From: Vineibacter terrae
GTDB taxonomy: Bacteria > Pseudomonadota > Alphaproteobacteria > Reyranellales > Reyranellaceae
Length of the DNA stretch: 64,000 bases
Direction: 5' to 3'
Assembly (NCBI RefSeq): GCF_008039615.1
Contig: NZ_VDUZ01000008.1
Span: 62,001-126,000 of the forward strand
Notes under the pieces: model-generated
The model's database searches: none
Seen by the model: the letters and a program-made list of their open reading frames with translations, nothing else
What the model was told of the DNA's origin: nothing
Shown here: positions 20,885-52,598 of the stretch, in pieces
How positions within the stretch are numbered: the stretch's first letter is position 1
Layout: each line of letters begins with the position of its first letter
Made by a program: the position numbers and the translations under genes

Positions 20885-20916
20885 CGGTCTTCCCCCAGGA
20901 GCTTTGGAACAGTGTG

Positions 20917-36014: not shown

Positions 36015-36019
36015 TTTCT

Positions 36020-36149
36020 TCCCTCCCCCAACGCAGTTGGGGGAGGTGCCCCGAAGGGGCGGAGGGGGAGCCGACGTGGTCCGTGTTGCGAAGACCACAA
36101 GGGGTCCCCTCGCCCCTTCGGGGCACCTCCCCACTTCGTGGGGACGGAA
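36020..36149. repeat. Family A element
   Basis: About 130 bases: CTCCCCCAACGCAGTTGGGGGAG, CCCCGAAGGGGCGGAGGGGG and, at the far end, GGGGCACCTCCCCACTTCGTGGGGA. It fills the gap between the AraC-type gene and the membrane protein gene, both on the minus strand, and leaves only 5 bases to the chosen start of the latter. Confidence 0.85.
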
Positions 36150-36151
36150 GA

Positions 36152-36991
36152 TCAGCCCTCGATCGGGATCCAGATCTCGATGCCGCCGAGCCCGGTGTCG
36201 GGGCTGAACGTGGCGTCGTAGCGCTCGAAGAACGGCGCGTCGGCGGCCTTGTGGCCGGACTGCGGCAGCCAGGTGTCCCAGATCGCGGTGAAGGTGCTGC
36301 GGATGGCGGCGATGTGGTCGCGGTGCGCGAAGACGGCATAGCGCGCCGGCGCGATGCGCAGGGGCGTCAGCGCCTGGGGCAGGTCCGAGAAGCTGCCGAC
36401 CTCGACGCCGCAGAGATAGTCGACATTGCCGTTGTCATCGCCGTTATGCGCGACGCCGTAGGCGGCCGCGCCGACCTGGCCGGCGATGTTGCCGATATAG
36501 GGATGGAAGCGCTGCCATTGCGCCGGCATGCCCATGGCGGTCTCGCAGGAATAGCGCTGGTTGATGCCGGCGATCAGCAGCGGCCTCGGCGTCATCTCGA
36601 TGCGTGGCGCCTCGAGCGCCTTGCCGGTGGCGTACCTCATGTTGAACGGCTCCGTCAGTGCGATGTTGTCGACATGGCCCTGGGCCCGCACCGCCTCGGG
36701 CGTTAGCCCGAGCTGGTCGCGGAAGGCCCGGGTGAACGCCTCGTGCGAGGCGTAGCCCGCGTCGAGCGCGACGGCCAGGATGTCCGGCGCGCCGCCGGCC
36801 AGCGCCCGGGCCGCTTCCGTCAGGCGCCTGTTGCGGGCGTAGCGCATGACCGGCCAGCCGGTCAGCGACGCGAACGCCCGCGTCAGGTGGTACGGCGACA
36901 CGCCGCAATTGGCCGCGACATCCTCCAGGGTGAGAGGCGCGGCGTAGTGGCTCTCGACATACCAGATGGCCTTGCGTGCCGGTGTCGTCAT
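36152..36991 (-). CDS. AraC-family regulator with GyrI-like effector domain
   Basis: 279-residue transcription factor. Two helix-turn-helix motifs of the AraC type come first (about 10-110: LEDVAANCGVSPYHLTRAFA and ILAVALDAGYASHEAFTRAF), followed by a GyrI-like small-molecule binding domain (about 120-279: RPLLIAGINQRYSCE, YAVFAHRDHIAAI, GGIEIWIPIE). This Rob/SoxS-BmrR-like arrangement usually senses cationic drugs or aromatic compounds. The target is unknown; the gene is the first minus-strand gene upstream of the membrane protein/PCMT pair, which it could control (inference). Confidence 0.88.
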   Translation of the reverse strand: MTTPARKAIWYVESHYAAPLTLEDVAANCGVSPYHLTRAFASLTGWPVMRYARNRRLTEAARALAGGAPDILAVALDAGYASHEAFTRAFRDQLGLTPEAVRAQGHVDNIALTEPFNMRYATGKALEAPRIEMTPRPLLIAGINQRYSCETAMGMPAQWQRFHPYIGNIAGQVGAAAYGVAHNGDDNGNVDYLCGVEVGSFSDLPQALTPLRIAPARYAVFAHRDHIAAIRSTFTAIWDTWLPQSGHKAADAPFFERYDATFSPDTGLGGIEIWIPIEG

Positions 36992-37162
36992 CCGCCCTCG
37001 CTCTCGACGCGGCGCCTGCTGTAGGCGCTTGCCGGTATCCGCGCTTGATCGTTCTTGCGCATGGCGGCCCGCGAATTGCCAGCACGACGGCACGCCGGTC
37101 ACGGCCGAGGACCGCATAGCCTCGCTGAAGCGCGGGTGGCGCGCGCCGCGGGACGGGACGGC

Positions 37163-38491
37163 TCAGCGGAAGCGCGGGATCCCCACGCCCGAGGCGCACC
37201 TCTGCCAGGCCTCGATCCAGCGCTGCCGGCCGCGCGGATCGTCGGCCGTGCGCTCGGCATGGGCATTGGCCCGGCAGACGCTCACGCACAGCGAATGCCC
37301 CTGCGCCTCGCAGTAGCGGCTGATGGCGCCGATGGCGGCGGCCACATCGGCGGCGCGGTCGAAGTCGGGAACGACCTGCCAGGGCAGCGGCGTGACGCCG
37401 GGCGGCAGCTCGAAATGCCGGCGCGCATCGCCCGACAGCGCGGCCACGATCGCCCGCGCCTCGCCCTCGGCGGTGACCGGCGGCAGCTCGAACGCCGCTG
37501 TCGTGGCCTCGGCCGGCGTCAACGGCCGCCATGAAGCGGCGCGGCTTCGCGCCTCCGCCAGGTCGGCGCTCGCCATCGTGCCCTGCAGGCGTGCCTGCGT
37601 GCCGGCCGCCGTGCGCGTTTCCGGCCGGCGGGCCGCGATCAGGATCCACGTGTAGGCCTGCACCGGATCGGGCGCGACGATGATCCTGCCGTCGCGCGCC
37701 AGGCCTTCATCGAACAGCTGGATCACGCGCTCCAGCGCCGGCTTGTGCTCCAGGTGCGCCGCCCGCATCAGCCAGCGATAGCCTTCGGCCGGATCCGGCG
37801 CGGCGCCTCTGCCGTCCAGCAGCATCAGGCCCAGCGCCGCCATGGCCGGGGCATCGCCGCCCGACGCCGCGCGGCGATGCATCTCGATCACGGCGGCGCG
37901 GTCGGGCGGCACGCCGGGCGCCCCCACCGTCAGCCGCCGCCCGAGAAGCTGGCGAGCGCGCCTGTCGCCCGAATCGGCGGCCTGCCGCAGCAGCTGCATC
38001 GAGCCGGCCACGTCGCGCACCGTGCCGCGGCCGTAGAGCATCATCTCCGACAGCGCCATCTGCGCTGCGGTGCTGCCGGCCTGCGCCGCTTGCCGTAGCC
38101 CCGAGGCGATGCGCGCCTCGTCGGCGGCCGGCTCAAGGCCGTCGCTGCGCAGGTCGTTGTAGCGCAGCGCCGCCTCGGGATTGCCCTGCTCGGCCGAACG
38201 GCCGAACCAGCCGATCGCGCTGCGCCGCCCGTCGCTGCCGGCGAAGCCGCGGCCCGCCGCGAGCCGGCTGGCCAGCACGTGTTGCGCCAGGCGATCGCCC
38301 TGCACGGCGCGCTCCAGCAACCGCAGATCGTCGGCCGGCAGCGGGCAGGGCGTGATCACCCGCGCCAGCCCGCAGCGCGATCGCAGGTCCTGCAGTGTCG
38401 CCGGCGCGTGCTCGACATCGTAGCGTCCGTCCTGCGCCGCGGCCGGCCATGCCAGCAGCATCACCAGTAGCCCGCATATCGAGCGTGCCAT
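37163..38491 (-). CDS. Sel1-repeat (TPR-like) secreted protein
   Basis: 442 residues. Signal peptide at 1-19 (ARSICGLLVMLLAWPAAA-Q), then a run of Sel1-like repeats from about 65 to 280 (for example GDRLAQHVLASRLAAGRGF, GNPEAALRYNDLRSDGL, GSTAAQMALSEMMLYGRG, GDAPAMAALGLMLLDGRG), a helical scaffold for protein contacts in the periplasm. The C-terminal part (about 330-442) has four cysteines (CEAQGHSLCVSVCRANA and WQRCASG) that may form disulfides. No enzyme motif. Divergent from the deacetylase gene across 95 bases. Confidence 0.82.
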   Translation of the reverse strand: MARSICGLLVMLLAWPAAAQDGRYDVEHAPATLQDLRSRCGLARVITPCPLPADDLRLLERAVQGDRLAQHVLASRLAAGRGFAGSDGRRSAIGWFGRSAEQGNPEAALRYNDLRSDGLEPAADEARIASGLRQAAQAGSTAAQMALSEMMLYGRGTVRDVAGSMQLLRQAADSGDRRARQLLGRRLTVGAPGVPPDRAAVIEMHRRAASGGDAPAMAALGLMLLDGRGAAPDPAEGYRWLMRAAHLEHKPALERVIQLFDEGLARDGRIIVAPDPVQAYTWILIAARRPETRTAAGTQARLQGTMASADLAEARSRAASWRPLTPAEATTAAFELPPVTAEGEARAIVAALSGDARRHFELPPGVTPLPWQVVPDFDRAADVAAAIGAISRYCEAQGHSLCVSVCRANAHAERTADDPRGRQRWIEAWQRCASGVGIPRFR

Positions 38492-38586
38492 CGCATCTCC
38501 TGGTCGACTCGACCTGGTTCCATGTGGCAGGGAGTCGTGATTCCGGATACTACCGCATGACCGCGATCATTTATCGAGAGTCCGCA

Positions 38587-39486
38587 ATGCGTGATTTCGT
38601 GGGCTATGGCGCCAACCCGCCCCATGCCGGCTGGCCCGACGGCGCGCGGATCGCGCTCAACGTCGTGCTCAATTACGAGGAAGGGTCGGAATACGCGATC
38701 ACCGAGGGCGACGGCCGTGTCGAGGTCGGCCTGGCGGAGGCGCCGGGCGGGCGGTTGCCCCCCGGCGAGCGCGATATCGCCTTCGAGACGATGTACGAGT
38801 ACGGCAGCCGGGTCGGCTTCTGGCGCATCCATCGCCTGATGCAGGAACGCAACCTGCCGATGACGGTGTTCGGCTGTGCCGTGGCGCTCGAGCGCAATCC
38901 CGCGGCCGCGCAGGCCATCGCCGAGGCCGGCCACGACATCTGCTGCCACGGCTGGCGCTGGGTGGAGCACTTCCGGCTGTCGCAGAGCGAGGAGCGCGAC
39001 CACATCCGGCGCGCGGTGGCGAGCATCCGCAGCCTGACGGGGCAACGCCCCGAGGGCTGGTACTGCCGCTACGGCCCCAGCGCGAACACGCGACGGCTCC
39101 TCGTCGAGGAGGGCGGATTCCTGTACGATTCGGATGCATACAACGACGAGCTGCCCTACTGGGTGACGGAGATGGGCAGGCCGCATCTGGTCGTGCCCTA
39201 CACCATGGATTCGAACGACGGGAAGTTCTGCCATCCCGCGGGCTTTGCCACCGGCAGCGATTTCTTCGAGTATCTGCGGGCAACGTTCGACGTGCTTTAC
39301 GCCGAAGGTGCGGCTGCCCCGAAGATGATGTCGGTGGGATTGCATTGCCGCATCACCGGGCGCCCGGCCCGGTCGGAAGGTTTCGCGCGGTTCCTGGACT
39401 ACGTGATGAAGCGCGAGGGAGTCTGGATTTGCCGTCGTCTCGACATCGCGAAGCACTGGATCGCCGTGCATCCGCATCGGCCGTGA
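38587..39486 (+). CDS. PuuE-type polysaccharide deacetylase family hydrolase
   Basis: 299-residue NodB-fold metal hydrolase of the allantoinase PuuE subgroup. Diagnostic pieces: GYGANPPHAGWPDGARIALN at the N-terminus, NYEEGSE, the metal histidine in DICCHGWRW (about 120) and the wall motif RYGPSANTRRLLVEEGGFLYDSDAYNDELPYW. PuuE-like enzymes open cyclic ureides or remove N-acyl groups, not only sugars. ATG 38587 follows GAGAG at a good distance; ATG 38557 in the same frame is possible. Its stop overlaps the GntR start (GTGA), so it belongs to the GntR-controlled cluster. Confidence 0.87.
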   Translation: MRDFVGYGANPPHAGWPDGARIALNVVLNYEEGSEYAITEGDGRVEVGLAEAPGGRLPPGERDIAFETMYEYGSRVGFWRIHRLMQERNLPMTVFGCAVALERNPAAAQAIAEAGHDICCHGWRWVEHFRLSQSEERDHIRRAVASIRSLTGQRPEGWYCRYGPSANTRRLLVEEGGFLYDSDAYNDELPYWVTEMGRPHLVVPYTMDSNDGKFCHPAGFATGSDFFEYLRATFDVLYAEGAAAPKMMSVGLHCRITGRPARSEGFARFLDYVMKREGVWICRRLDIAKHWIAVHPHRP

Positions 39487-40130
39487 GGCCGCCCCGGCCC
39501 AAGCCGTATCAGCTCATGGACATGATGCGGCGGGCCGTCATCACGGGCCGCTATGCCCCCGGCCAGGCTTTGCGCGAGGAGACGCTGGAAGCCGAATACC
39601 GGGTCAGTCGTGGCCCGATCCGCGAGGCCCTGCGATTGCTGGAGCTGCGCGGCCTCGTCACTCATGCCCCGCGCCGCGGCTTCCGGGTGAGGACCTACAC
39701 GGTCAAGGACATCGAGGATCTCTACCGCATGCGTGCCCTTCTCGAGCGGCATGCGGTCGAGTGCCTGAGGGACGCGGCGCTCGACGCGCTGGTGGAGAGG
39801 CTGGAGGCCAGCAATGCGCGGATGGCAACGCAGTTGAACAAGGGCAACATCGAAGGGTACCTGGCCGAGAACGTGACGTTCCATACCCTTGTCATCGACG
39901 CCAGCGGCAACGAGCCGCTCAAGCGCACGCTCAACGTGCTCAACGAGATGGCCGAGCCGCTGCGCTATGCGCTGCTGTCGCGAAACCTGAAGAAGGGACG
40001 GTCGCTCGCCGACCACCGCCGCATCACCGAGCTCCTGCGCAGCGGGCGCATCGATGTCGCCGCCAGCACCACCGAGGCGCACATCCTGGACAACCTGCCG
40101 GCGCTGCTGGCGCTGGCAGATAAATTGTAG
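39483..40130 (+). CDS. GntR-family (FCD) transcriptional regulator of the adjacent catabolic cluster
   Basis: 215-residue FadR/FCD-type regulator. Winged helix at about 10-70 with the GntR recognition part LEAEYRVSRGPIREALRLLELRGLV; FCD ligand domain from about 85, with metal-binding residues in the segments RALLERHAVE, NVTFHTLVIDASGN and LADHRRITELL. GTG 39483 overlaps the deacetylase stop by four bases; this start gives an N-terminus just before the first helix. The stop codon itself lies inside the palindromic operator at 40122-40138, so the protein very likely represses the lyase promoter that follows. Confidence 0.9.
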   Translation: MRPPRPKPYQLMDMMRRAVITGRYAPGQALREETLEAEYRVSRGPIREALRLLELRGLVTHAPRRGFRVRTYTVKDIEDLYRMRALLERHAVECLRDAALDALVERLEASNARMATQLNKGNIEGYLAENVTFHTLVIDASGNEPLKRTLNVLNEMAEPLRYALLSRNLKKGRSLADHRRITELLRSGRIDVAASTTEAHILDNLPALLALADKL

Positions 40131-40138
40131 ACAATTTT
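40122..40138. promoter_or_regulatory. Predicted GntR operator, site 1
   Basis: Perfect dyad AAATTGT-AG-ACAATTT (40122-40137), the TTGT-N2-ACAA pattern expected of FadR/FCD-type GntR regulators. It spans the stop codon of the regulator gene and ends 47 bases before the CitE-like start. A 17-base identical copy lies before the TRAP operon at 47182-47198 and nowhere else that I found in the window. Confidence 0.78.
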
Positions 40139-40184
40139 TATACCGCCAACTAGGTTCTCTCCGGTTGCAGACGCTGGGGAAGGC

Positions 40185-41045
40185 ATGGTGCAGCGGCTCA
40201 GGCGCAGCAAGTTGTTCGTGCCGGGCAATCGCCCGGACCTGATGAGGAAAGCGGCTGCCGGCCCCGCCGACAGCCTCTCGTTCGATCTCGAGGATGCGGT
40301 GCCGCAGGACGGCAAGAGCGGCGCCCGCGAGATCACCGCCGCCTTCCTGGCGGCCGGCGCGTCAGGCTGCGGCAAGCAGATTGTGGTGCGCGTCAACGCC
40401 CTGGACACGGGCCTGATGATCGCCGACATCCTGGCGGTCGCGTCCGCTCCTCTGCATGCCATCAATGTTCCCAAGTGCGAGAGTCCGCGCGATCTGCATG
40501 TTGCCGACGCGGTTCTCGCCCATGTGGAGGCCGGGCGCGGCCTGCCGCGGGGAAGCATCGGCCTCATGGCCACCATCGAGACACCGGCGGGGCTGCGCAA
40601 CGCCCACGCGATCGCGGGCGCCTGTCCGCGCGTGGACGCCATCCAGCTCGGCCTCGGTGATCTCAAGGCCGTCACGGGCATGCGGCCGCAGACGCATCGC
40701 CTGGGTGCCGTGCGCACCCTGGTGATCCTGGCGGCCGCCGAGGCCGGCATCGCGGCGTTCGACAGCGCCTTCGTCAATGTGGTGGACGCTGCCGCCTTCG
40801 AGACCGATGCCACCGAGGCGCGCGATCTCGGGTTCGCCGGCAAGAGCTGCATCCATCCCAGCCAGGTCGAGCCCTGCAACCGGATCTTCGCTCCGGCGGA
40901 TAGCGACATCGAGGAGGCGCGCGCCTTGCTGAGAACATATGACGATGCCGCGCAGCGCGGCATCGGCGCGGTCCTGTTCCGCGGCCGGCTGGTCGATGCC
41001 GTCCATGCCGCCGAGGCGCGGAAATTCCTGGGTCAGCTGTCGTGA
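40185..41045 (+). CDS. HpcH/HpaI (CitE-like) aldolase/lyase
   Basis: 286-residue TIM-barrel enzyme of the citrate-lyase beta/malyl-CoA lyase family. RSKLFVPGNRPDLMRKA at the N-terminus, SLSFDLEDAVPQ (metal Asp), VVRVN, LMATIETPAGL (metal Glu) and GKSCIHPSQVE are all present. It cleaves a 3-hydroxyacyl-CoA to acetyl-CoA or a keto acid, or condenses the reverse. GGGGAAGG before ATG 40185. First gene after the operator, overlapping the CoA transferase by four bases, so the two likely supply and cleave an acyl-CoA in turn. Confidence 0.88.
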   Translation: MVQRLRRSKLFVPGNRPDLMRKAAAGPADSLSFDLEDAVPQDGKSGAREITAAFLAAGASGCGKQIVVRVNALDTGLMIADILAVASAPLHAINVPKCESPRDLHVADAVLAHVEAGRGLPRGSIGLMATIETPAGLRNAHAIAGACPRVDAIQLGLGDLKAVTGMRPQTHRLGAVRTLVILAAAEAGIAAFDSAFVNVVDAAAFETDATEARDLGFAGKSCIHPSQVEPCNRIFAPADSDIEEARALLRTYDDAAQRGIGAVLFRGRLVDAVHAAEARKFLGQLS

Positions 41046-42229
41046 GCGGCCCCCTCGACGGCCTGCGCGTGATCGACGCGGCATCGCTGTTCGCCGGCCC
41101 GGTGATCGCGAGCCTCCTGGGTGATTTCGGCGCCGATGTCATCAAGGTCGAGCATCCCGGCGGCGACGCGCTGCGCAAGACCGGCTACCAGAAGGACGGC
41201 GTGCCCCTGTGGTGGAAGGTCGTGGCGCGCAACAAGCGCTGCATCACGCTCGACCTCAAGAAAGGGGGCGACATCTTCAAGAAGCTTGTCGCCGGTGCCG
41301 ACGTGGTCATCGAGAATTTCCGTCCGGGAACGCTCGAGAAGTGGGGCCTGGGCTGGGACGTCCTGTCCGCCATCAACCCGCGCCTCGTCATGGTGCGTGT
41401 CACGGGCTTCGGCCAGACGGGCCCCTACAGCAGCAAGCCGGGCTTCGGCACGCTGGCGGAAGCCATGAGCGGCTTCGCGCACATCACCGGCACGCCCGAT
41501 GGTCCGCCCACGCTGCCGCCGTTCGGACTGGCGGACGGGATCGCCGCCCATTACGGCACCTTTGCGACCATGTTCGCGCTCTATGAGCGCGACGCGAAGG
41601 GCAGCGGCAAGGGACAGTTCATCGACCTGTCGCTCTATGAGCCGATCTTCGCACTGCTGGGCTACCAGCCGACCCTGTTCGATCAGCTCGGCGTGATCCA
41701 GGGCCGCACCGGCAACCGCTCCGTCAACAATGCGCCGCGCAATGCCTACCAGACCAGGGAAGGGCGTTGGGTCGCCCTGTCGGCAGCCGCGCCATCGATC
41801 GTCGAGCGCGTGCTGACGTTGACCGGCGGACCCGCGGCCGCGGCCGATCCGCGGTTCAGGACGGCGCGCGGCCGTGTCGAGCATGTCGAGGAGATCGACG
41901 CCATCGTCGGCGGCTGGATCGGCCGGCACACGCTGGCCGAGGTGCTGCAGGCGTTCGAGGCCTACGAAGGCGCCATCGCGCCGGTCTACGATGTCGCCCA
42001 GATCTTCGAGGATCCGCAGTACGCGGCCCGTTGTGACGTGATCGACGTGCCGGACGAGGAGCTGGGGACGGTGAAGATGCAAAACGCCTTTCCGTTCATG
42101 TCGCGGACGCCGGGCCGCGTGCGGCATGCCGGCCCGCGGCTCGGCGCCCACAACGCCGATATCCTGGTCCGCGAGCTCGGCCTCACCGAGGCCGAGCTCG
42201 GCGACCTGAAGAGCCGGGGCGTCATATGA
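41042..42229 (+). CDS. CaiB/BaiF-type CoA transferase
   Basis: 395-residue class III CoA transferase. GLRVIDAASLFAGPVIASLL, LGDFGADVIKVEHPGGD, VVARNKRCITLDLKKGG and the catalytic Asp region FGLADGIAAHY (about 160) followed by GKGQFIDLSLYEP. GTG start overlaps the lyase stop; its own stop overlaps the isochorismatase start (ATGA). It would activate the pathway acid to its CoA ester for the CitE-like lyase. Confidence 0.92.
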   Translation: MSGPLDGLRVIDAASLFAGPVIASLLGDFGADVIKVEHPGGDALRKTGYQKDGVPLWWKVVARNKRCITLDLKKGGDIFKKLVAGADVVIENFRPGTLEKWGLGWDVLSAINPRLVMVRVTGFGQTGPYSSKPGFGTLAEAMSGFAHITGTPDGPPTLPPFGLADGIAAHYGTFATMFALYERDAKGSGKGQFIDLSLYEPIFALLGYQPTLFDQLGVIQGRTGNRSVNNAPRNAYQTREGRWVALSAAAPSIVERVLTLTGGPAAAADPRFRTARGRVEHVEEIDAIVGGWIGRHTLAEVLQAFEAYEGAIAPVYDVAQIFEDPQYAARCDVIDVPDEELGTVKMQNAFPFMSRTPGRVRHAGPRLGAHNADILVRELGLTEAELGDLKSRGVI

Positions 42230-43023
42230 GCGTGCCGATCTGGGACGCCTATGTCAGCGAAGCCGACCGGCAGGTGATCAGCCGGGCGCGGTTCGGCCGG
42301 CGCATGGGGTTCGGCCGGCGTCCGGCGCTGGTCGTGATCGATTGCCAGCGCTACATGGTGGGCGAGCGCGACGCGAGCCAGGACCTCTACCCCTCATCCT
42401 GCGGCGCAGCGGGATGGGCTGCCGTCGACCAGATCCTGCGTCTGGTCCGCGCCGCACGCGCGGCCGGCGCACCGGTATTCTTCAGCCGCTTCACGCTGGA
42501 TCCCGGCGGCGCCGATATCGGCGTCTATGGGCGCAAGCGTGATCTGCTGCAGTCGCCGTACTGGTGCCTCGAGGGCACGGTGGGGGCGGAACTGGTGCCC
42601 GAGCTGGGTCCCGAGCCGGGCGACATGGTGTTCGTGAAGAAGAAGCCGTCCGGCTTCTTCGGCACACCGCTGCTGGCCTATCTCGTCGACCGGCAGGTCG
42701 ACACCGTGATCGTGTGCGGCGGCGCGACCTCGAACTGCATCAGGGCCACCGTGTTCGACGCGTCGTCGTACAACTTCCGGACCATCGTGCCGGCCGATGC
42801 GGTGTTCGACCGGATCCAGGTGTCGCACGCCATCAGCCTTTTCGACATGGACCGCCAGTTCGCCGACGTCGTGCAGACCGATGCCGTCGTCGACGTCCTC
42901 TCGCGCTGCCGCGACGGAGAGTTGCCCCTCCCTCTTCCCGCGAGAGCGGGGAGAGGGAGGGGCCCATCGCGAAGCGATGGGAGGGTGAGGAGTAGGGCCG
43001 GTCAAAGCATGCGCAGGGGGTAG
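42226..43023 (+). CDS. Isochorismatase-family hydrolase with repeat-derived C-terminal tail
   Basis: 265-residue cysteine hydrolase of the isochorismatase/N-carbamoylsarcosine amidase fold. Catalytic triad visible: D39 in LVVIDCQRYM, Lys in VFVKKKPSGFFGT (about 137) and Cys in CGGATSNCIRATVF (about 172). It hydrolyses an amide or ureido bond. The family core ends near DVLSRCRDG (about residue 230); the last 34 residues are Arg/Gly/Pro-rich and are encoded by the start of a Family A repeat (42923 on), so the natural stop was displaced. Coupled to the CoA transferase by a four-base overlap. Confidence 0.86.
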   Translation: MSVPIWDAYVSEADRQVISRARFGRRMGFGRRPALVVIDCQRYMVGERDASQDLYPSSCGAAGWAAVDQILRLVRAARAAGAPVFFSRFTLDPGGADIGVYGRKRDLLQSPYWCLEGTVGAELVPELGPEPGDMVFVKKKPSGFFGTPLLAYLVDRQVDTVIVCGGATSNCIRATVFDASSYNFRTIVPADAVFDRIQVSHAISLFDMDRQFADVVQTDAVVDVLSRCRDGELPLPLPARAGRGRGPSRSDGRVRSRAGQSMRRG

Positions 43024-43161
43024 ACATGCTGCCGCTGCTGCGACACCCCGGCATGCCGAGATTGGACGTTCGTACCCCTCACCCTCCCGCCCTTCGGCAG
43101 GCTCAGGGCAGGCTGCTGCGCGCGGGCCCCTCCCTCTCCCCGCTCTCGCGGGGAGAGGTGT
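42923..43161. repeat. Family A long inverted repeat, entering the isochorismatase 3' end
   Basis: About 240 bases. Left half CCTCCCTCTTCCCGCGAGAG and GGGGAGAGGGAGG, GCCCATCGCGAAGCGATGGG; right half GGGCCCCTCCCTCTCCCCGC and CGGGGAGAGG mirrors it. The left 100 bases are translated as the end of the preceding gene. It separates the coupled trio from the amidohydrolase gene. Confidence 0.82.
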
Positions 43162-43215
43162 TGGAGATCGGGATGACGGACTGACCCTCGATTCAGGACG
43201 ACGATGGAGACGCAG

Positions 43216-44262
43216 ATGAGCACAACCGTGGACCCCGCTCTCATTTCCAACGATTTCCTGCGCGTCAGGCCGGACTGGCTGGCGCTGCGCACCGAGGCGG
43301 TCTTGGAGCCCGACCTGCCGATCGTCGATCCGCACCATCACCTCTGGGATCATCCGGGCAACCCGTACCTGCTGTCCGATCTGCTGGCGGACACCGGCAG
43401 CGGCCATAGCGTCATGGCCACGGTGTATGTCGAAGCCCGGTCGATGTATCGCGCTGGTGGCCCGATCGAGCTGCGCTCCCTGGGCGAGACCGAGTTCGTG
43501 AACGGTATCGCCGCCATGAGCGCAAGCGGCGCCTATGGGCCGACCGCCGCCTGTGCCGCGATCATCGGCAACGTCGACCTCAGGCTGGGCAGCCGGGCCA
43601 GGGCCGCGCTCGAAGCGCACGTGGCGGTGTCCGGCGGCCGCTTTCGCGGCATCCGCAACGTCTCGGCCTGGCACCCGGATGGCATCAAGGCAACCAGCGC
43701 GAGCCCGCCACAGGGATTGCTGCTCGATCGCGGCTTCCGCGACGGCTTCGCCTGCCTGGCGCCGCTCGGCCTCACGTTCGATGCCTGGCTCATGCACACC
43801 CAGCTCGACGAGGTGCTCGACCTGGCGCGGGCCTTCCCCGACACCACCATCGTGCTGGACCATGTCGGCGGTCCGGTCGGCATCGGTCCGTATGTCGGCC
43901 AGCGCGAGGCGGTGTTCGCGGCATGGGCCGCCGCCATCCGCGCGCTGGCGCGCTGCCCCAACGTGAACGTCAAGCTGGGCGGCCTCGGGATGCACCTGAT
44001 CGGGTTTGATTTCCACGCCCGGCCGCAGCCGCCGTCATCGCAGGACCTGGCTTCCGCCTGGAAGCCTTACATCGAGACCTGCATCGCCGCGTTCGGCGCC
44101 GGGCGCTGCATGTTCGAGAGCAACTTTCCGGTCGACAAGGGGACGTGCAGCTACCGCGTGCTGTGGAACGCCTTCAAGCGGCTGACGACCGGTTTCTCCG
44201 CCGACGAGAAGGCCGCCCTCTACAGCGGCACGGCGCGCAAGGTCTATCGCCTGCCCGGTTGA
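43216..44262 (+). CDS. Amidohydrolase family protein (PDC lactonase-like)
   Basis: 348-residue TIM-barrel metal hydrolase. The first motif is IVDPHHHLWDHPGN (HxH), then GIRNVSAWHPD, WLMHTQLDEVLDLA, VLDHVGGPVG (metal His) and the late Asp/Glu segment MFESNFPVDKG, the arrangement of 2-pyrone-4,6-dicarboxylate lactonase and related lactonases/amidases. ATG 43216 follows GGAGA; an ATG 12 bases earlier is the alternative. Last gene of the plus-strand arm of the GntR cluster, convergent with the TRAP transporter. Confidence 0.87.
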   Translation: MSTTVDPALISNDFLRVRPDWLALRTEAVLEPDLPIVDPHHHLWDHPGNPYLLSDLLADTGSGHSVMATVYVEARSMYRAGGPIELRSLGETEFVNGIAAMSASGAYGPTAACAAIIGNVDLRLGSRARAALEAHVAVSGGRFRGIRNVSAWHPDGIKATSASPPQGLLLDRGFRDGFACLAPLGLTFDAWLMHTQLDEVLDLARAFPDTTIVLDHVGGPVGIGPYVGQREAVFAAWAAAIRALARCPNVNVKLGGLGMHLIGFDFHARPQPPSSQDLASAWKPYIETCIAAFGAGRCMFESNFPVDKGTCSYRVLWNAFKRLTTGFSADEKAALYSGTARKVYRLPG

Positions 44263-44279
44263 GTGTAGGGCCATCAGCA

Positions 44280-45575
44280 TCAGAACATCTGCTGCGGCAG
44301 CCACAGCGCGATGCCGGGGAACAGCGTCAGGACGAGCACGCCGGCCAGCAGCAGCACGACGTAGGGGAGCGAGCCCCAGCTGACCTCGCCGAGCGAGGTC
44401 TTGGCCATTCCCTGGAGGACGAACAGGTTCATCCCGACCGGCGGTGTGACCAGGCCGATCTCCAGAAGGATGACCAGCACCACGCCGAACCAGATCGGAT
44501 CGAAGCCGGCCGCCGTCATGATCGGGTGGACGACGGGCAGGGTGAGCAGCATCAGGGACAGGGCATCGACGAGGCAGCCCAGCACCAGGTACATCACCAC
44601 CACGACGGCGAACACCACATAGGGCGCCAGGTGCGCGCTCTCGATGGCGGCGACGATGGCGCGCGGGATGCCGGCGGCGACCAGCGCGAACGACATGATC
44701 TGGGCGCCGACCACGATGAACAGCACCATCGCGTTCGTGCGCAGCGTGTCGAGCAGGCTCTTGCGCAGCGCATCCATCGTCAGCCCGCCGTAGAGCGCCG
44801 CGACCGCCACCGCGCCCGCCGCCCCGACGCCGGCCGCTTCGGTCGGGGTCATCACGCCGGCATAGATGCCGCCCATGACCAGCCCGATCAGCAGCGCCAC
44901 GGGCACCAGGTCGCGCAGCCCCATGAGCCGCGCGCGCCAGGGCACTGATTCGCCGAGGACGGGAAACTGCCCCGGCATCAGCTTGGCGTGGCCGGCCAGG
45001 AACACCATGAAGATCGCGGCCATCGCCAGGCCGGGGATGATCCCGGCGATGAACAGCTTGCCCACGGACTCCCCGACGGTCGAGCCGTAGATGATGAACG
45101 GGATCGACGGCGGGATGAGGATGCCGAGCGTGCCGCCGGCGGCGAGCGTGCCGGTCATCGGCCGCACGCCGTAGCCGCGCTTCTGCATCTCCGGGATGGC
45201 GATCGAGCCGACTGATGCCGCCGTGGCGACGCTCGAGCCGCACAGCGCCGCGAAGATGCTGCAGGCCAGGATGTTGGTCTGCGCCAGGCCGCCGGGGACA
45301 CGGTTCAGCCACAGCGCCAGGCTGCGATAGAACCGCGTGCTGATGCCGCTGTTCAGGATCACCATGCCCATGAAGATGAACAGCGGCACCGCGGTCAGCA
45401 CGAAGCTCTCGAGCGTGTTCCAGACGACGGATTCGAGGCCGCCCAGCAGGGCCGGCTTGACGATCCAGATGCCGATCACGCCGGCTGCGCCGAGGCTGAT
45501 GGCGATCCACACGCCGCCGAACAGCAGGGCCAGCATCACGCCGAAATAGATCGCCGCCACGATTTCCCAGCTCAC
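44280..45575 (-). CDS. dctM: TRAP transporter large permease (DctM-type)
   Basis: 431-residue, about 12 helices. The typical signature FIFMGMVILNSGIS, CGSSVATAASVGSIAIPEM, GGTLGILIPPSIPFIIYGS and EIGLVTPPVGMNLFVLQG of the DctM family are present; it carries the Na+-driven transport site. GTG 45575 overlaps the DctQ stop. Third gene of dctP-dctQ-dctM. With the binding protein it imports a carboxylate, here presumably the substrate of the facing cluster. Confidence 0.93.
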   Translation of the reverse strand: MSWEIVAAIYFGVMLALLFGGVWIAISLGAAGVIGIWIVKPALLGGLESVVWNTLESFVLTAVPLFIFMGMVILNSGISTRFYRSLALWLNRVPGGLAQTNILACSIFAALCGSSVATAASVGSIAIPEMQKRGYGVRPMTGTLAAGGTLGILIPPSIPFIIYGSTVGESVGKLFIAGIIPGLAMAAIFMVFLAGHAKLMPGQFPVLGESVPWRARLMGLRDLVPVALLIGLVMGGIYAGVMTPTEAAGVGAAGAVAVAALYGGLTMDALRKSLLDTLRTNAMVLFIVVGAQIMSFALVAAGIPRAIVAAIESAHLAPYVVFAVVVVMYLVLGCLVDALSLMLLTLPVVHPIMTAAGFDPIWFGVVLVILLEIGLVTPPVGMNLFVLQGMAKTSLGEVSWGSLPYVVLLLAGVLVLTLFPGIALWLPQQMF

Positions 45576-46066
45576 GCAGCACCTCGGCGCAACAGGTTCA
45601 GGGCCTCGAGAAGCTCGGCCAGCATCTGCACGAACAGCACGGCGAGACCAAGCGGCACGAAGGCCTGGATCGGCCACAGCACGACATTGGTCGCCGTGAC
45701 CGAGAACGAGCCGCTGTGGTAGCTGTCCAGCACCAGGACCGCGCTGCGCCACACGAGCAGGCCGACATACGGCAGCCCGACCAGGCACCATGCCACCCTG
45801 AGATACCGGCGCAGCCGGTCGGAAAGGCGGTCGGTCACCAGCGTGACTTGGATATGGTCGCCGTGAAGCAGCGCGTAGCCGAGCGCCGAGAACGTGGTGA
45901 TGACCAGCAGGTAGCCGGACAGCTCGTCGGCCACCACCATCGGCGCCGTCAGGATCCGCCGCGAGATGACCTGCACGGTGATCAGCACGATCATCGCCGT
46001 CAGGGCGACGGCCCCGACCGCCACGCCCGCCTGGCTCAGGCGGGCGGCAATGGTCGACAGGCGCAT
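45572..46066 (-). CDS. dctQ: TRAP transporter small permease (DctQ-type)
   Basis: 164-residue membrane protein with four helices; the DctQ pattern is seen in IVLITVQVISRRILTAPMVVADELSGYLLV and the Leu-rich last helix. Needed with DctM to form the QM transporter unit. Sits between DctP (four bases after its stop) and DctM (four-base overlap). Confidence 0.9.
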   Translation of the reverse strand: MRLSTIAARLSQAGVAVGAVALTAMIVLITVQVISRRILTAPMVVADELSGYLLVITTFSALGYALLHGDHIQVTLVTDRLSDRLRRYLRVAWCLVGLPYVGLLVWRSAVLVLDSYHSGSFSVTATNVVLWPIQAFVPLGLAVLFVQMLAELLEALNLLRRGAA

Positions 46067-46070
46067 CGGG

Positions 46071-47093
46071 CTACTGCAGCTTGAGCGCCGTCAACGCCTG
46101 CTCGAGCGCGGCGCTGCCCTCCGGTCCGACCTTGTCCTTCACGTAGCTGCGATAGACCGGGATCAGGTTCTTGCGCGTCTCGACATGGGTCTCGGGCGGC
46201 ACCTGGACCACGGCCTTGAGCTGTCCCTTGTCCTGCATGCGCTTGATGGCGCCGTTGTCGGCCTCTTCGACGACCAGCTTCTGCCAGCGGTCGGTCCACC
46301 AGTCGCCGACCTCCTTCACGGTCTTCTGCAGCTCGGGCGAGAGCTTCTTCCATGAGCTCTGGTCGACGGAGATGTAGAAATGGGCCACCGGGCCGTCGAT
46401 CTTCAGGAAGTAGGGCGCCACCTCGTAGAGCTTGGCCGTCTCGATCGCGACGGCGGCGGTCAGCACGCCGTCGACGATGCCCCGCTGCGTCGCCGGATAG
46501 ACCTCGGCCCAGACCACGAAGGACGGCGCGGCGCCCCAGGTCTTCACGTATTCCGCCTCCAGGCCGCCGGCGGTGCGGATCTTCTTGCCCTTGATGTCGC
46601 CCAGCCCCTTGACCGCCTCGCGCATGACGATGTTGCGCGGCGGGTAGGCGCCCCAGCCGATCGGCTCGACACCGTTCTTGCGCAGCGCGGCGTAGATCTT
46701 GGGCCACATGATGTCGCGCAGGATCTTGCGCTCCGCGTCGTTCAGCGCGAGGTACGGCAGGTCGCCCAGGAGCAGCGGCGGCGCGTCGCCGAACGCCATG
46801 CTGCCGACGATCTCCGACATCTCGACCAGTCCCTTGGCCGTCACGCGCATGTACTCGGGCGCCTTGTAGGGCAGCTCGCCCGCGGCATAGAACGTCACCT
46901 CGACCTGGCCGTTGGTCCGCTTCGTGATCTCGGCCGCCAGCTCCTTGAAGCGGTCGACGAACACCTCCTGGCCGGCCGGAATGATCGAGACGAACTTCCA
47001 CTGGTGCTTCGCCTGTGCCAGCGCCTGGCCGGCGCCGAGCAGGCTGCTGATCGAGAGGGCGATTGCCGCCGCAAGCCACGTCATCCGCTTCAT
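46071..47093 (-). CDS. dctP: TRAP transporter periplasmic binding protein (DctP-type)
   Basis: 340-residue solute-binding protein. Signal peptide 1-27 (TWLAAAIALSISSLLGAGQALA-Q). Mature features: FYAAGELPYKAPEYMR, LGDIKGKKIRTAGGLEAEYVKTWGA with the conserved ligand-carboxylate Arg (IRTAGG), and GIVDGVLTAAVAIE. ATG 47093 (MKRM) is chosen over an upstream TTG. The second predicted GntR operator lies about 90 bases upstream, in the promoter region. The ligand is most likely a small organic acid. Confidence 0.92.
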   Translation of the reverse strand: MKRMTWLAAAIALSISSLLGAGQALAQAKHQWKFVSIIPAGQEVFVDRFKELAAEITKRTNGQVEVTFYAAGELPYKAPEYMRVTAKGLVEMSEIVGSMAFGDAPPLLLGDLPYLALNDAERKILRDIMWPKIYAALRKNGVEPIGWGAYPPRNIVMREAVKGLGDIKGKKIRTAGGLEAEYVKTWGAAPSFVVWAEVYPATQRGIVDGVLTAAVAIETAKLYEVAPYFLKIDGPVAHFYISVDQSSWKKLSPELQKTVKEVGDWWTDRWQKLVVEEADNGAIKRMQDKGQLKAVVQVPPETHVETRKNLIPVYRSYVKDKVGPEGSAALEQALTALKLQ

Positions 47094-47180
47094 GATGGTC
47101 CCCGTCAATGCATGCGCGCCTCAGCCGACCGCACCTGAGGCCGCAGGCAGGCTAACACCCGTGCAAGAAGGCGGTCAAAG

Positions 47181-47198
47181 AAAATTGTAGACAATTTT
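47181..47198. promoter_or_regulatory. Predicted GntR operator, site 2
   Basis: Perfect 18-base dyad AAAATTGTAGACAATTTT, sharing 17 bases exactly with the site at 40122-40138, 7.06 kb away. It lies 88 bases before the DctP start codon, in a region where no coding signal competes, so it fits an operator of the TRAP operon. Confidence 0.78.
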
Positions 47199-47205
47199 GA
47201 GTGCC

Positions 47206-47540
47206 CGCCTCGGCGTGGAAGCGACGCCGCTTGTCGTCGACGGCATCATGTATGTTACGGCGCCCTGGAGCGTCGCTCACGCCATCGATGTCCGCACGGG
47301 CAGGAAGATCTGACCCCGCCGGCAAGTACTGGGTCGCAGGCGGCGGCGGCACGATCTGGGATACGATCACCTTCGATCCCGAGCTGAACATGATCTATGT
47401 CGGCACCGGCAACGGATCGCCGTGGAACCGCAAGGTCCGCAGCCCGGCCGGCGGCGACAACCTCTATCTGGCGTCGCTGGCGTCGCTGAACGCCGACACC
47501 GGGAAGTACGTCTGGCACTACCAGGAGACGTCCGGCGATT
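47206..47540 (+). pseudogene. PQQ-dependent alcohol dehydrogenase remnant
   Basis: Two pieces of a quinoprotein dehydrogenase in different frames. 47206-47313 encodes [20 protein letters not shown] and ends at a stop; from 47312 the other frame continues [20 protein letters not shown], then [18 protein letters not shown] and [18 protein letters not shown]. In intact enzymes these blocks are separated by over 100 residues, so there is an internal deletion plus frameshift, and both ends of the gene are missing. The W-motif-like pieces (GTGNGSPW) are typical of membrane-associated PQQ alcohol dehydrogenases. Non-functional. Confidence 0.82.
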
Positions 47541-47689
47541 TATCGGCGCTGGTGCCCATCCCGCCGCGGTGGTGGAGCGCGACACCCCGCGGCGCGACCG
47601 GCAACGGTGCAGCGACCACCAGCGTCGCAGCAGGTCGTGTTGCCCGTCTCGAGCGTCGGACCCTCGACCTGCTTGAGATGGCCGGGGAT

Positions 47690-47833
47690 CTATCGATCTG
47701 TGAGCCGAGGCTCGAAGCTCGCGGCGGCGAGGCCGTTGGGGGTGCTCATGTCCCAGACCAGAACAAGGACGAGTGCCACCGTCACAAAGCCAAAGAGCAT
47801 GGCCAGCAGCCTGGCCTGGCGGTCCCGCGACAT
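47690..47833 (-). CDS. Single-helix microprotein A (WDxSTPNG family)
   Basis: 47 residues: a short basic N-terminus ([10 protein letters not shown]), one transmembrane helix ([17 protein letters not shown]) and a conserved end [15 protein letters not shown]. The same design and sequence recur in the microprotein at 49427-49558 on the other strand, which supports both as real genes. GAGGGAGGGG before ATG 47833 is a strong ribosome site. Function unknown; a membrane-anchored regulator or stress peptide is possible. Confidence 0.6.
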
Positions 47834-47844
47834 CGACCCCTCCC

Positions 47845-48225
47845 TCATGCCTGCCCAAGTGCGTTTTGGGCCACGCGCAACGTGTCCGTATCCCACGGGC
47901 CCTGAAAAGCGACGTGCATTTCACGGCCGGGTACGATCAGTCGGACCGCACCTGCCGCCACATCGATGCCGCACCAGCGCTTCGGCGAGAGGTCAATGAC
48001 GAGCGATGCCCAATCCGGGCGTCTCGTCGACCTGCAGGATGAGCCAAGTCCGAACTGTGTCCGATGCAAGATTACATCGCCTGCGTCGAAGCAGCAGTGC
48101 GTGATGTCCGGGTGGCCGACAGCGAGCTGGACGAAAGTCGTCTCTGACCCTCGAAGCTGGTCCGTAAACTCACTGAAATCGGCGAACTGATCGAAGCGAC
48201 ACAAACGCCCCATAACGCTCCCCAT
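47845..48225 (-). pseudogene. Truncated AraC-type regulator N-terminal domain
   Basis: 126-codon reading frame whose middle and end ([48 protein letters not shown]) resemble the effector-binding half of AraC-family regulators, with the WxG and PG-E pattern of that domain. The DNA-binding C-terminal half is absent: a stop occurs 12 bases before the microprotein gene. I read it as a decayed regulator; a free-standing effector-domain protein is the alternative. The 193-base AT-richer stretch beyond it (48226-48418) probably held its promoter and shows nothing else. Confidence 0.42.
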
Positions 48226-48418
48226 TGCTTACAGCGTCGAAAGCCGCTGCGCGGCTTGTTCTCGTCCGAGGGGATGCGTCGACCGCTTATATTGCGATCT
48301 GAAGATATTATCGTAAATCGTTGCTACATTAGCGTGTCTTGGGTGGGTTGTCAGTATTTTTACGGTTCTTGCATTTGCCCGTCAATTCTTGTCATGCCGG
48401 GAGCCTGAACGTTTGGTT

Positions 48419-48838
48419 TCACTGGCGATTATTCGACGCATTCTTTCGGCCAGTGAAATCGCCCGTTTGGTCGGCGATGTGGCGCCGTTCGTAAGTATCC
48501 CGAGCTTCGCGGAGCGATACCAGTATGGTTTGTAGGACCTGGACGAGCTCAACCGCCTCCCGGGGATCTCCGGCACGGCCCGACGAAATCAGTTCCTGCT
48601 GCCTACTGATCTGAAACTCGGTCTCCGCAATGCGTTCTTCCACCCGAAAGCGCTTCCCGCCGCGCCGGCCGCTCGGCGGGTGAGTAACGCATCTGACGTC
48701 CTTGCAACCAGGACATTCAAAAGTAAGAAGTTCATAGGGGCAGGTACGAAGGGTTCGCTGCACGAGCGACATCCGGGTCCCGCATGCCCTGCAGAGAGGG
48801 ACTTTACCGATACTCTCGCCAATCTCGCTATTGGGCAT
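48419..48838 (-). CDS. Hypothetical zinc-ribbon-like protein
   Basis: 139 residues. N-terminal part has two Cys pairs, CRACGTRM (about 15-22) and CPGCKDVRC (about 42-50), plus an extra Cys before them, a plausible zinc ribbon. The C-terminal part (about 68-125) is a charged helix, likely coiled coil (RIAETEFQISRQQELISSG, VQVLQTILVSLREARDTYE). ATG 48838 is preferred to an upstream TTG. It lies between the two microprotein genes. Function unknown; nucleic-acid or protein binding is a guess. Confidence 0.6.
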   Translation of the reverse strand: MPNSEIGESIGKVPLCRACGTRMSLVQRTLRTCPYELLTFECPGCKDVRCVTHPPSGRRGGKRFRVEERIAETEFQISRQQELISSGRAGDPREAVELVQVLQTILVSLREARDTYERRHIADQTGDFTGRKNASNNRQ

Positions 48839-49426
48839 CGACGGCCCCTGAGCTGGTCGCAAACGCGGTTTTGGAACGACGAACTCAACGGCATGTCGGC
48901 CACGAGGACGCTGTCCAGTCTCGCAACAAGGCTGGGCATCGATACCACCACCTCAATTCCCGTATCCATTGACCCTTGGGCCAACTTGCCGAATATCAGT
49001 GGCGCACGCGCCGCACGTCGAGGCCTGAGACATGCGTGCGGGTTCGACCACGCCCGCCTGGATCGCCTGCTCGTCGCGCGACGCGCTTTCCCCGCGCATG
49101 CGGCGCGGTAACGACCATGACGCGGTCGTTCGGCTAGCGTGTCGGATCCGCAGCGACTCATAGTTGCGCATTGGCATTGCGCGCACGGGCTTGTTCAGGC
49201 AGCGCCGGTGGACTGCATGATTTGCGAGTCATTCACCGAATCCGAAGCAATGCAGCTTCATCCGAGAAAGCGCATCCGCGCTCGATACCGTCAACCAGAG
49301 CTTCTGGCGGTAGTCCCGACGGATCAACATCCCTGGCCTGGATTCACGAGTGCAGGCCCCAGGCAGCAGGCGCGATGCTCGGTCGTGATGGGTGAAGTGG
49401 CGGTGTGTAGAGCGTGGGAGGGGGCG
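48839..49426. other. Intergenic stretch without supported gene
   Basis: 588 bases. All reading frames here are short, start late or have scrambled composition; none matches a family I know. The DNA looks less GC-biased than the surroundings. It probably holds decayed sequence like the neighbouring remnants and the promoter of microprotein B. Confidence 0.5.
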
Positions 49427-49558
49427 ATGACTCACGACCGTGGGGATACACTGTTGGCTTCGTTCTTTGTCTTTGTGACCGTGACCCTCGTCGTTGTTCT
49501 GGCCTGGGACATCAGCACGCCGAACGGTCTCGTCGCAGCGACGCTGCGGAGTCTCTAG
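49427..49558 (+). CDS. Single-helix microprotein B (WDxSTPNG family)
   Basis: 43 residues, paralogue of the microprotein at 47690-47833: acidic/basic start (MTHDRGDTLLA), one helix (FFVFVTVTLVVVLAW) and [27 protein letters not shown] before ATG 49427 is a strong ribosome site. Its last 47 bases overlap, antisense, the final codons of the truncated cas9 gene, which marks a DNA junction near 49560. Confidence 0.58.
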   Translation: MTHDRGDTLLASFFVFVTVTLVVVLAWDISTPNGLVAATLRSL

Positions 49559-52500: not shown

Positions 52501-52598
52501 CGGCCGTCCTTGCCCGGCTTGCCAAGGTCCGTGATGCACCAGCCGATCGAATTGGTCCCCAAATCCAGCCCGAGGCGAAACGGAAGCGTCCTCTTCAT
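49512..52598 (-). CDS. cas9: Type II-C-like Cas9, C-terminally truncated
   Basis: 1028 codons. RNA-guided nuclease with RuvC-I (LGLDLGTNSIGWCI, D12), an Arg-rich bridge helix ([18 protein letters not shown], about 64-81), a REC lobe, RuvC-II (DEIVVELARELKQTREQK, about 540-557), HNH (VEIEHILPFT about 624, then ANRDKGDRTP) and RuvC-III (DHRHHAVDAFVL, about 814-825): all nuclease residues are intact, although the residue before the HNH His is Glu rather than Asp. The C-terminal domain breaks off after HRVDVFERPDGTWQ (about 1003); the last 25 codons are antisense to microprotein B and unlike Cas9. About 100-130 residues, including much of the PAM-interacting part, appear lost. GGAG precedes the ATG. 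No cas1, cas2 or array follows. Confidence 0.9.
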   Translation of the reverse strand: MKRTLPFRLGLDLGTNSIGWCITDLGKPGKDGRMHPVRIRRMGVRIFPDGRDPQSGASLAEARRTPRSARRRRDRFLDRRADLMKLLIAHGLMPADPAARKALAALDPWALRGEGLDQQLTLHELGRALFHLNQRRGFKSNRRTDKKADDKEAQGMKAGAAALAAKLDGRTPGRRTLGEYFYAAYRKDRTPRGAPDGSTLPIAAVRFRAHAGKGNKLEWDLYPTRDMVEAEFDALWTAQAAHHPALTEEGRAAIRDAIFYQRPLRPVEPGPCTLDPEPDPHKRERRAPLALPLQQEFRILQELANLELRHRRTGQVRRLGRQERDKVLHELKRREKYSFSQIRKLLGIDNVWSFNLQDDRRDGLKGDVVAYKLAKNGFGKSWHDMAVEQQDEVVRFLLDEEREDEVLRVATTSWGLALEAAAGVAGTPLPEGYGRLGRTALARIVHHLRHGVSSKDGGLMHYDEAVQAAGYRHHSDFSTGEVFTDAPYYGQILERYMVPVSGVSGSADEQQYGRITNPTVHVSLNQLRQLLDAIIAAYGHPDEIVVELARELKQTREQKRETQTRQLENQKKNERRKQQLEAAGIALRGDALLRMRLWEELGENVADRACVYTGEPIGIKTLFSDKVEIEHILPFTLTLDDSPSNLTIAMRHANRDKGDRTPHDAFGTSPTIGGQSYDWDAIALRASALPWAKQWRFRADALQLIKDRLLREEQRAKGSLPRDVMADIENTGGFLARQLVDTAYLARVARQYLTSVVPSETVDGVMRSKVWVVPGGMTGMLRRLWGLNRYLWGNRPEAADEGPDDWRGKLRTDHRHHAVDAFVLTLIDRPLLNSIQYQAGQSGRRTIDDMPDPIDWPTFREDLKDRFDRIVVSYKPEHSPSGRLHEETAYGIVREPAKEDGATLVYRATFVDLDTDGIARIRDLHLRARVLAAVEGVTSDKKKLRETLTAFAATEPQALRHVRLLKVKSDYRTILHSRSHYSKAFVPGKNHRVDVFERPDGTWQAAGNFSPAQARDSAASLRRDRSAC

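Follow-up and report, generated by a model that had tools for sequence, protein, structure and literature searches.

A Recurrent Gene Core of Vineibacter terrae Linking a PuuE-Like Hydrolase and an Isochorismatase-Type Amidohydrolase to CaiB and CitE-Like Enzymes: A Tentative Module for Cyclic Imide-Like Compounds

Introduction

In the nicotinate pathway of Aspergillus nidulans, a hydroxylated cyclic imide is formed, opened, and deamidated by HxnW, HxnM, and HxnN, respectively, and HxnM is related to an imidase of P. putida and to HpPgdA (3qbu) (PMC9304392). Marks of metal independence were described for the PuuE allantoinase 3CL6, whose motifs 1 to 3 differ greatly (PMC10967932), while a putative trimethylallantoinase belongs to the caffeine C-8 pathway (PMC4408171). 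Enzymes of the CaiB and CitE types cooperate in itaconate clusters, in which the coenzyme A (CoA) transferase of P. aeruginosa activates (S)-citramalate directly (PMC12290011), and itaconate uptake in P. aeruginosa is due to a tripartite ATP-independent periplasmic (TRAP) transporter (PMC12599236). The present work concerns a locus of the alphaproteobacterium Vineibacter terrae located in a stretch of 64,000 nucleotides (contig NZ_VDUZ01000008.1, positions 62,001 to 126,000), hereafter the window, in which a PuuE-like ring hydrolase, a GntR/FCD regulator, a CitE-like C-C lyase, a CaiB CoA transferase, and an isochorismatase-type amidohydrolase, called Iso, are encoded one after the other on the plus strand and are followed by an Amidohydro_2 gene and by a TRAP transporter.

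The recurrence of the PuuE-like enzyme, Iso, CitE, and CaiB as a unit in other genomes is supported by the neighborhood data reported below, and this core may serve the breakdown of a small cyclic imide-like compound that is probably already hydroxylated, a reading to which we assign a probability of roughly 0.45. As far as a search of the open-access literature shows, the locus combines known enzyme families in a way not yet described. An earlier note on this DNA had supposed that no described pathway contains this exact set and that the substrate may be new; in agreement with this, no description of the gene set or of its substrate was found in the open-access literature, subscription papers being mostly outside the scope of the search.

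Organization and Recurrence of the Core

The PuuE-like gene (38587..39486, PF01522) encodes a protein of the polysaccharide-deacetylase/NodB fold, and its ATG at 38587 is the favored start since the similarity to the nearest relative begins there. It is followed by the regulator (about 39483..40130, PF00392 and PF07729), whose start, GTG 39483 or ATG 39516, is uncertain, by the CitE-like gene (40185..41045, PF03328, HpcH_HpaI), by the family III CoA transferase CaiB (41042..42229, PF02515, CoA_transf_3), and by Iso (42226..43023, PF00857). The nine genes listed for the locus in the earlier note and their families were all recovered by Pfam. The four-base overlaps claimed there are present between CitE and CaiB and between CaiB and Iso, and probably between PuuE and GntR, where the overlap exists only if the regulator uses GTG 39483; in contrast, GntR and CitE are separated by 54 bases and Iso and the Amidohydro_2 gene by 180 bases.

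Loci related to Iso were collected with short peptides taken from Iso as queries against a single genome of each species, which gave 66 loci, many of them from metagenome-assembled genomes and including near-copies such as L063/L070 and L046/L050/L051; named records belong, among others, to Bordetella, Variovorax, Ramlibacter, Candidimonas, Verticiella, Bosea, Falsiroseomonas, and Limobrevibacterium, with Variovorax ginsengisoli DS1607 (L027) and Bosea sp. BK604 (L024) being cultured strains. Neighbors were counted within 5 kb of Iso by tblastn of the window proteins and of recurrent neighbors, with a threshold of 60 bits, raised to 100 bits where CaiB, amidase, or isocitrate-lyase type was counted singly; the gene calls, made by simple scripts, include wrong-strand calls, and the co-occurrence counts rest on tblastn instead. 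The neighbor families Bug/TctC, short-chain dehydrogenase/reductase (SDR), ATP-binding cassette (ABC), and TauD were at first assigned by eye from translations, and some were later checked with profiles.

Of the 66 loci, 46 are flanked by at least 5 kb on each side; among these, CitE was found in 34, CaiB in 34, both in 31, the PuuE-like gene in 17, an amidase-signature enzyme in 27, GntR in 10, the TRAP large permease DctM in 4, and Amidohydro_2 in none; any of four ring/amide hydrolase types was present in 42 and any C-C lyase, of CitE or isocitrate-lyase type, in 38. The corresponding numbers for all 66 loci are 45 for CitE, 40 for CaiB, 36 for both, 19 for PuuE-like, 39 for amidase-signature, 14 for GntR, 6 for DctM, and 1 for Amidohydro_2. 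On the basis of the densities in the V. terrae genome (11 CitE, 57 CaiB, and 4 PuuE-like genes, the last being a lower bound from a DNA search), 0.7 CitE, 3.4 CaiB, and 0.2 PuuE-like neighbors would be expected in the 46 loci; expectations are quoted rather than probabilities because binomial tails assume independent loci and own-genome densities alone. As a control, CitE or CaiB lies within 1.5 kb of the gene in none of nine isochorismatase loci from outside the clade but from the same order, against 27 of 55 clade loci.

The core recurs across several families of Pseudomonadota, including Burkholderiales, Acetobacteraceae, and Bosea. In particular, the nearest relative, a metagenome-assembled genome of Beijerinckiaceae (L019), has the order PuuE-GntR-CitE-CaiB-Iso, identical to that of the window, with 73–91% identity (91% for CaiB) up to a contig end that lies about 400 bases further. 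At E 1e-60, the Iso clade is present in 6 of 385 genomes of the class, V. terrae among them, and in 1 of 398 genomes of a phylum sample, which is V. terrae itself, while in a search of the order (76 genomes, E 1e-30) Iso matches outside the own genome reach at most 38% identity; this patchy distribution looks like the outcome of horizontal spread. The co-occurrence elsewhere, on which the earlier note had made its proposal depend, is thus found for the PuuE-like, Iso, CitE, and CaiB core, whereas Amidohydro_2 and TRAP are hardly linked to it.

The PuuE-Like Ring Hydrolase

The PuuE-like enzyme is homologous over its whole length to the PuuE allantoinase 3cl6 (E 2e-110); its score against NCBIfam TIGR03212 is 414 bits, under the cut-off of 424.6, and all nine scanned proteins with GWYCR or otherwise lacking the allantoinase signature lie under it (365–414 bits). 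For comparison, the two allantoinase-signature proteins scanned are both above it, namely L086 of the own genome with 480.8 bits and the urate-operon gene L124, which adjoins uraH, puuD, and uraD, with 500.4 bits. The signature consists of GWYTGR and EEGGE, common to the solved structures 3cl6, 1z7a, and 3s6o and to L086 and L124; the use of the GWYTGR loop as an allantoinase mark is a definition of this analysis and not a published one. In the window enzyme the loop is GWYCRYGPS, one residue longer than GWYTGR, and EEGSE replaces EEGGE. Among 21 PuuE-like sequences from Iso loci, GWYCR occurs in 19, GWYSR in one (L035), GWYNR in one (L078), and GWYTGR in none. In the alignment, the GWYCR loop falls on a part of 3qbu that we read as NodB-fold motif 3, and it plausibly faces the substrate.

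In a tree of 33 sequences, the five with the allantoinase signature fall on one side of a branch supported at 99/97, while the window enzyme belongs to a set of 14, all from Iso loci, supported at 98/96. A weak grouping (90/58) places L034, a GWYCR sequence on a long branch, with the allantoinase side, and a long-branch warning applies to L078, L034, and L087. By the tests available, which are the TIGR03212 score, the loop signature, and the tree, the PuuE-like enzyme appears not to be an allantoinase. The likely true PuuE allantoinase gene of V. terrae is L086 (contig 24, 9012-11368), which adjoins an allantoate amidohydrolase gene and is divergent from it, and no urate gene was found among the window genes scanned.

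The Isochorismatase-Type Amidohydrolase

Residues D39, K138, and C171 of Iso, together with the later R196, are invariant in all 63 relatives with at least 55% identity, and the first three align with 1nba and 26st; the Asp-Lys-Cys set is presumably the catalytic one of N-carbamoylsarcosine amidohydrolase (1nba). Other residues are specific to the clade, with Q41, M44, F89, R105, W113, C114, K139, and K140 present in 63 of 63 and N170 in 62 of 63. The scores against RutB and biuret amidohydrolase (BiuH), 55.1 and 42.4 bits, are under the respective cut-offs of 377.95 and 370. Judged by its sequence, Iso is a discrete clade, separate from the characterized families compared. The later Arg is shared by 3ot4, which we take to be the maleamate amidohydrolase NicF, so that, judged from sequence, the substrate of Iso could be either a half-amide or a ureido acid.

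A repeat element of 27 bases occurs in two copies of opposite orientation, the first within the 3' end of the Iso reading frame (42931..42957, minus strand, 1 mismatch) and the second in the gap between Iso and Amidohydro_2 (43132..43158, plus strand), with an expectation of 0 from shuffled sequence. The C-terminal tail of Iso, from about residue 233 (the last 33 residues or so), is probably an extension caused by this element. The similarity of most relatives stops at about residues 231–234, and the extension is no more than probable since the matches of a few of them (L035, L036, and L055) run further.

The CaiB and CitE-Like Enzymes

CaiB enzymes generate CoA esters and CitE-type lyases cut 3-hydroxyacyl-CoA; therefore, the product of Iso should be a hydroxy acid of the malate type. 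The best match of the CitE-like protein in the PDB is the malyl-CoA lyase/beta-methylmalyl-CoA lyase 5ugr (E 4.6e-40), while its score against RipC (NF038242) is 168.7 bits, under the cut-off of 375. In 8 of the 66 loci a lyase of the isocitrate lyase/PrpB superfamily is encoded within 5 kb of Iso, all of these matches being under the curated cut-offs; in five (L076, L077, L081, L082, and L083, with L077 and L083 on contigs under 5 kb) no CitE was seen, and in L061 CitE is found just about 8 kb away. Since these are malate-cleaving lyases of another superfamily, their proximity also indicates a hydroxy acid as the Iso product. In line with this, the own-genome paralogue of Iso, L088 (contig 11, 8611-10220), directly adjoins a gene of the isocitrate lyase/PrpB type and, by inspection, a TauD-like gene, and is possibly part of a second amide-plus-lyase pathway. 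Further CitE-CaiB pairs were observed in the own genome beside TauD-like genes, again by inspection, in L130 and L131 (contigs 1 and 36), with no Iso match.

In the CaiB tree, which has just 7 sequences from outside the surroundings of Iso and carries a long-branch warning, the Iso-linked CaiB proteins are found in several lineages with unlinked ones between them, corresponding to 6 changes of which at least 3 are forced, and their clustering is not above that of shuffled labels (117 of 500 as low). This arrangement fits repeated recruitment, and the origin of the Iso-linked CaiB proteins from several lineages supports in turn a hydroxy acid as the Iso product. No hydratase was found among the nine cluster genes or among the nine other window genes scanned, which are a part of the window genes; a hydratase would be needless if the acid were already hydroxylated, because the itaconate CoA transferase takes (S)-citramalate.

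Proposed Pathway and Alternative Explanations

From the enzyme families we infer the reactions, their order, and the type of substrate, and the two or three hydrolytic steps, CoA activation, and C-C cleavage supposed in the earlier note are a fair deduction of the same kind. The PuuE-like enzyme would open a cyclic imide ring to a half-amide, whose primary amide would be hydrolyzed by Iso, often found elsewhere beside an amidase-signature enzyme, to ammonia and a malate-type hydroxy-dicarboxylic acid. CaiB would then transfer CoA to the hydroxy acid from a donor such as succinyl-CoA, and the CitE-like lyase would split the hydroxyacyl-CoA into a 2-oxo acid of the glyoxylate or pyruvate type and an acyl-CoA. 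The GntR/FCD protein would probably sense the substrate or an intermediate, while import of the substrate by TRAP and opening of a related lactone or lactam by Amidohydro_2 may be optional extras.

Several observations weigh against this imide pathway and many of them favor a ureide instead. Among solved structures, Iso is closest to N-carbamoylsarcosine amidohydrolases, which cut a ureido group and not a half-amide, so that a hydantoin ring fits almost as well. The PuuE-like enzyme is homologous to allantoinase, an opener of hydantoins, and its sister clade adjoins ureidoglycolate lyase-like genes: in four of four plasmid loci with GWYCR (L120-L123, from Mesorhizobium, Salipiger, Variovorax, and Bosea) the next gene is a ureidoglycolate lyase, by annotation in three and by an NCBIfam match under the cut-off in L120, and glycerate dehydrogenase is present in one plasmid locus and dihydropyrimidinase genes in two, five of the 309 matching plasmid records having been examined. 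Hydantoinase/allantoinase-like Amidohydro_1 genes are found near Iso in 4 of 66 loci and beside 5 of 9 non-clade isochorismatase genes of the control set (1.5 kb). Finally, CitE and CaiB could run in reverse, toward assimilation. On these grounds the PuuE-like enzyme would open a 5-substituted hydantoin to a ureido acid, Iso would remove the carbamoyl group as ammonia and CO2, a 2-oxo acid, for example glyoxylate, would arise by collapse of the product, and CitE and CaiB would assimilate this acid by condensing it with an acyl-CoA to a hydroxyacyl-CoA and releasing a hydroxy acid. We consider this ureide scheme unlikely, if well worth keeping in view: ureidoglycolate lyase is absent from the nine cluster genes, an amidase-signature enzyme accompanies Iso in more than half of its loci (39 of 66), and CaiB/CitE pairs are described for the breakdown of dicarboxylates (PMC12290011). 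The linkage itself also has exceptions that count against a fixed imide module, given that a PuuE-like gene lies within 5 kb of Iso in just 19 of 66 loci, that neither lyase type does in 8 of the 46 flanked loci, and that, among five more distant loci of the class, L127 and L128 carry PuuE-like and Iso genes without CitE or CaiB, L126 has Iso alone, and L125, which seems to be the locus L034 again, has CitE and PuuE-like genes without CaiB, while L129 has CitE and CaiB with Iso. To this is added that the open-access literature search found no assay for any member of the Iso, PuuE-like, and CaiB clades.

Ordinary allantoin utilization, with unrelated neighbors, would account for the full-length homology to 3cl6 (E 2e-110) and for the annotation as allantoinase PuuE of many plasmid relatives, three of the four in L120-L123 among them; it is nonetheless very improbable in view of the recurrent linkage to Iso, CitE, and CaiB, and a plain allantoin pathway was rejected on score, loop, and position outside the allantoinase clade, and on the better candidate L086, a paralogue that exceeds the cut-off and adjoins allantoate amidohydrolase. 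A dicarboxylate pathway of the itaconate/citramalate type, in which the hydrolases would be a side entry or unrelated, agrees with the cooperation of CaiB and CitE types in itaconate clusters and with itaconate uptake by TRAP, but it is improbable given the lack of a hydratase in the 18 genes scanned, the score of the CitE-like protein far from the RipC cut-off, and the joint presence of CitE and CaiB by Iso in 36 of 66 loci. A bolder form of the imide proposal, which we regard as a long shot, would make the core a bacterial pathway, so far missing, for five-membered imides that carry alkyl and hydroxyl groups, for example the maleimide-type fragments of oxidized haem, chlorophyll, and bile pigments. 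The ring would be opened, the half-amide deamidated, CoA transferred, and the ester cleaved by the lyase to compounds of the pyruvate or glyoxylate type, and the entire uncharacterized sister family of "allantoinase PuuE" would act on several rings of this kind. Maleimide-type fragments arise from the oxidation of tetrapyrroles, and nothing in the cluster points to them in particular.

Borders of the Locus and Neighboring Genes

Downstream of Iso, the Amidohydro_2 gene (43204..44262, plus strand, PF04909) encodes an enzyme of the lactonase/amidohydrolase type whose membership in the pathway is uncertain. The TRAP set is complete by Pfam and consists of the large permease DctM (44280..about 45575, PF06808, with the GTG start at 45575 deduced within an open frame that extends beyond it), the small permease DctQ (45572..46066, PF04290), and the solute-binding protein DctP (46071..47108, PF03480, alternative start ATG 47093). 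All three genes are on the minus strand and convergent with Amidohydro_2, the two stop codons being 17 bases apart; a full TRAP transporter within the plus-strand arm, as the earlier note had it, is not found, and TRAP as part of the plus-strand transcript is ruled out by the opposite strand.

The description of the locus as self-contained is likewise not supported, because DctM (6 of 66 loci) and Amidohydro_2 (1 of 66) are weakly linked to Iso. The latter case is L062, in which Iso, an Amidohydro_2 that is 58% identical, and TRAP genes share one strand, while L078 has an Amidohydro_2 about 6.7 kb off. Of the 385 class genomes, 68 encode relatives of Amidohydro_2, V. terrae itself having four copies including that of the window, and in 29 other Amidohydro_2 loci examined over 1.5 kb, Iso or PuuE is present in none and CaiB in two; the weak linkage in both directions (1 of 66 and 0 of 29) led to the rejection of Amidohydro_2 as a core member. 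It is about an even chance that the genes from PuuE-like to Iso are one operon and that Amidohydro_2 and TRAP are a separate unit with its own substrate, an arrangement compatible with each of the pathways discussed above: the opposite strand of TRAP, the repeat element preceding Amidohydro_2, and the weak linkage of both in other genomes argue for it, and the single-strand arrangement of L062 argues against it.

The transporters vary among the Iso loci and include Bug/TctC-like, branched-chain-type ABC, and TRAP systems, recognized by inspection and homology and, in L119, by annotation. DctP has only distant relatives in the PDB (best 67 bits), which yield no ligand, and the comparison of the ABC binding protein of L027 with solved structures gave no inferable ligand. 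GntR may control the unit; an inverted repeat upstream of PuuE may be its operator and is not conserved in the nearest relative L019. An HD-domain protein, considered as a recurrent neighbor of Iso, was found in just 2 of 66 loci.

On the left of the cluster are genes for a Sel1-repeat protein and an AraC-type regulator, whose relation to it is not obvious. Elsewhere in the window, an S-Me-THD-type gene and, after it, one of the hydantoinase A type were observed at 19713-22455 on the plus strand, and a Cas9-like protein of 1028 aa (RuvC_III, HNH_4, Cas9_a) is encoded at 49512-52598 on the minus strand; a repeat search of 47100-53500 revealed no CRISPR-like array, cas1 and cas2 not having been sought, and no Rfam family reached the gathering score in window positions 36000-54000.

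Comparison with Known Systems

The recurrent combination joins the hydrolysis of C-N bonds in rings and amides with a C-C cleavage that depends on CoA, and a simple sequence mark separates a family often annotated as "allantoinase PuuE" from the likely true allantoinases. Identification of the substrate would correct annotations and could reveal how bacteria remove natural imides or ureides. The itaconate Ict-Ich-Ccl (RipABC) system with TRAP shares with the cluster a CaiB-type CoA transferase, a CitE-type lyase, and the transporter; it differs in that no hydratase was found in the cluster, C-N hydrolases are placed in front, and the CitE-like protein is far under the RipC cut-off. In the HxnW-HxnM-HxnN pathway of A. 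nidulans, a ring hydrolase of the same fold and then an amidase act on a hydroxylated cyclic imide (PMC9304392), and an SDR of one type is near Iso in some of the bacterial loci (8 of 66); in contrast, the window enzyme is far closer to PuuE than to the HxnM relative 3qbu (372 against 63 bits), and the available part of the account of the fungal pathway describes no CoA steps (PMC9304392). With the PuuE allantoinase 3cl6, the alignment reveals common marks of metal independence, that is, a motif 1 without the Asp pair and a motif 2 whose second His is replaced by Trp, whereas the sub-cut-off score, GWYCRYGPS instead of GWYTGR, EEGSE instead of EEGGE, and the position outside the clade set the window enzyme apart. 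Lastly, Iso has in common with the N-carbamoylsarcosine/maleamate amidohydrolase family the residues aligned with Asp-Lys-Cys and the later Arg, and is distinguished by its own conserved residues and by scores under the RutB and BiuH cut-offs.

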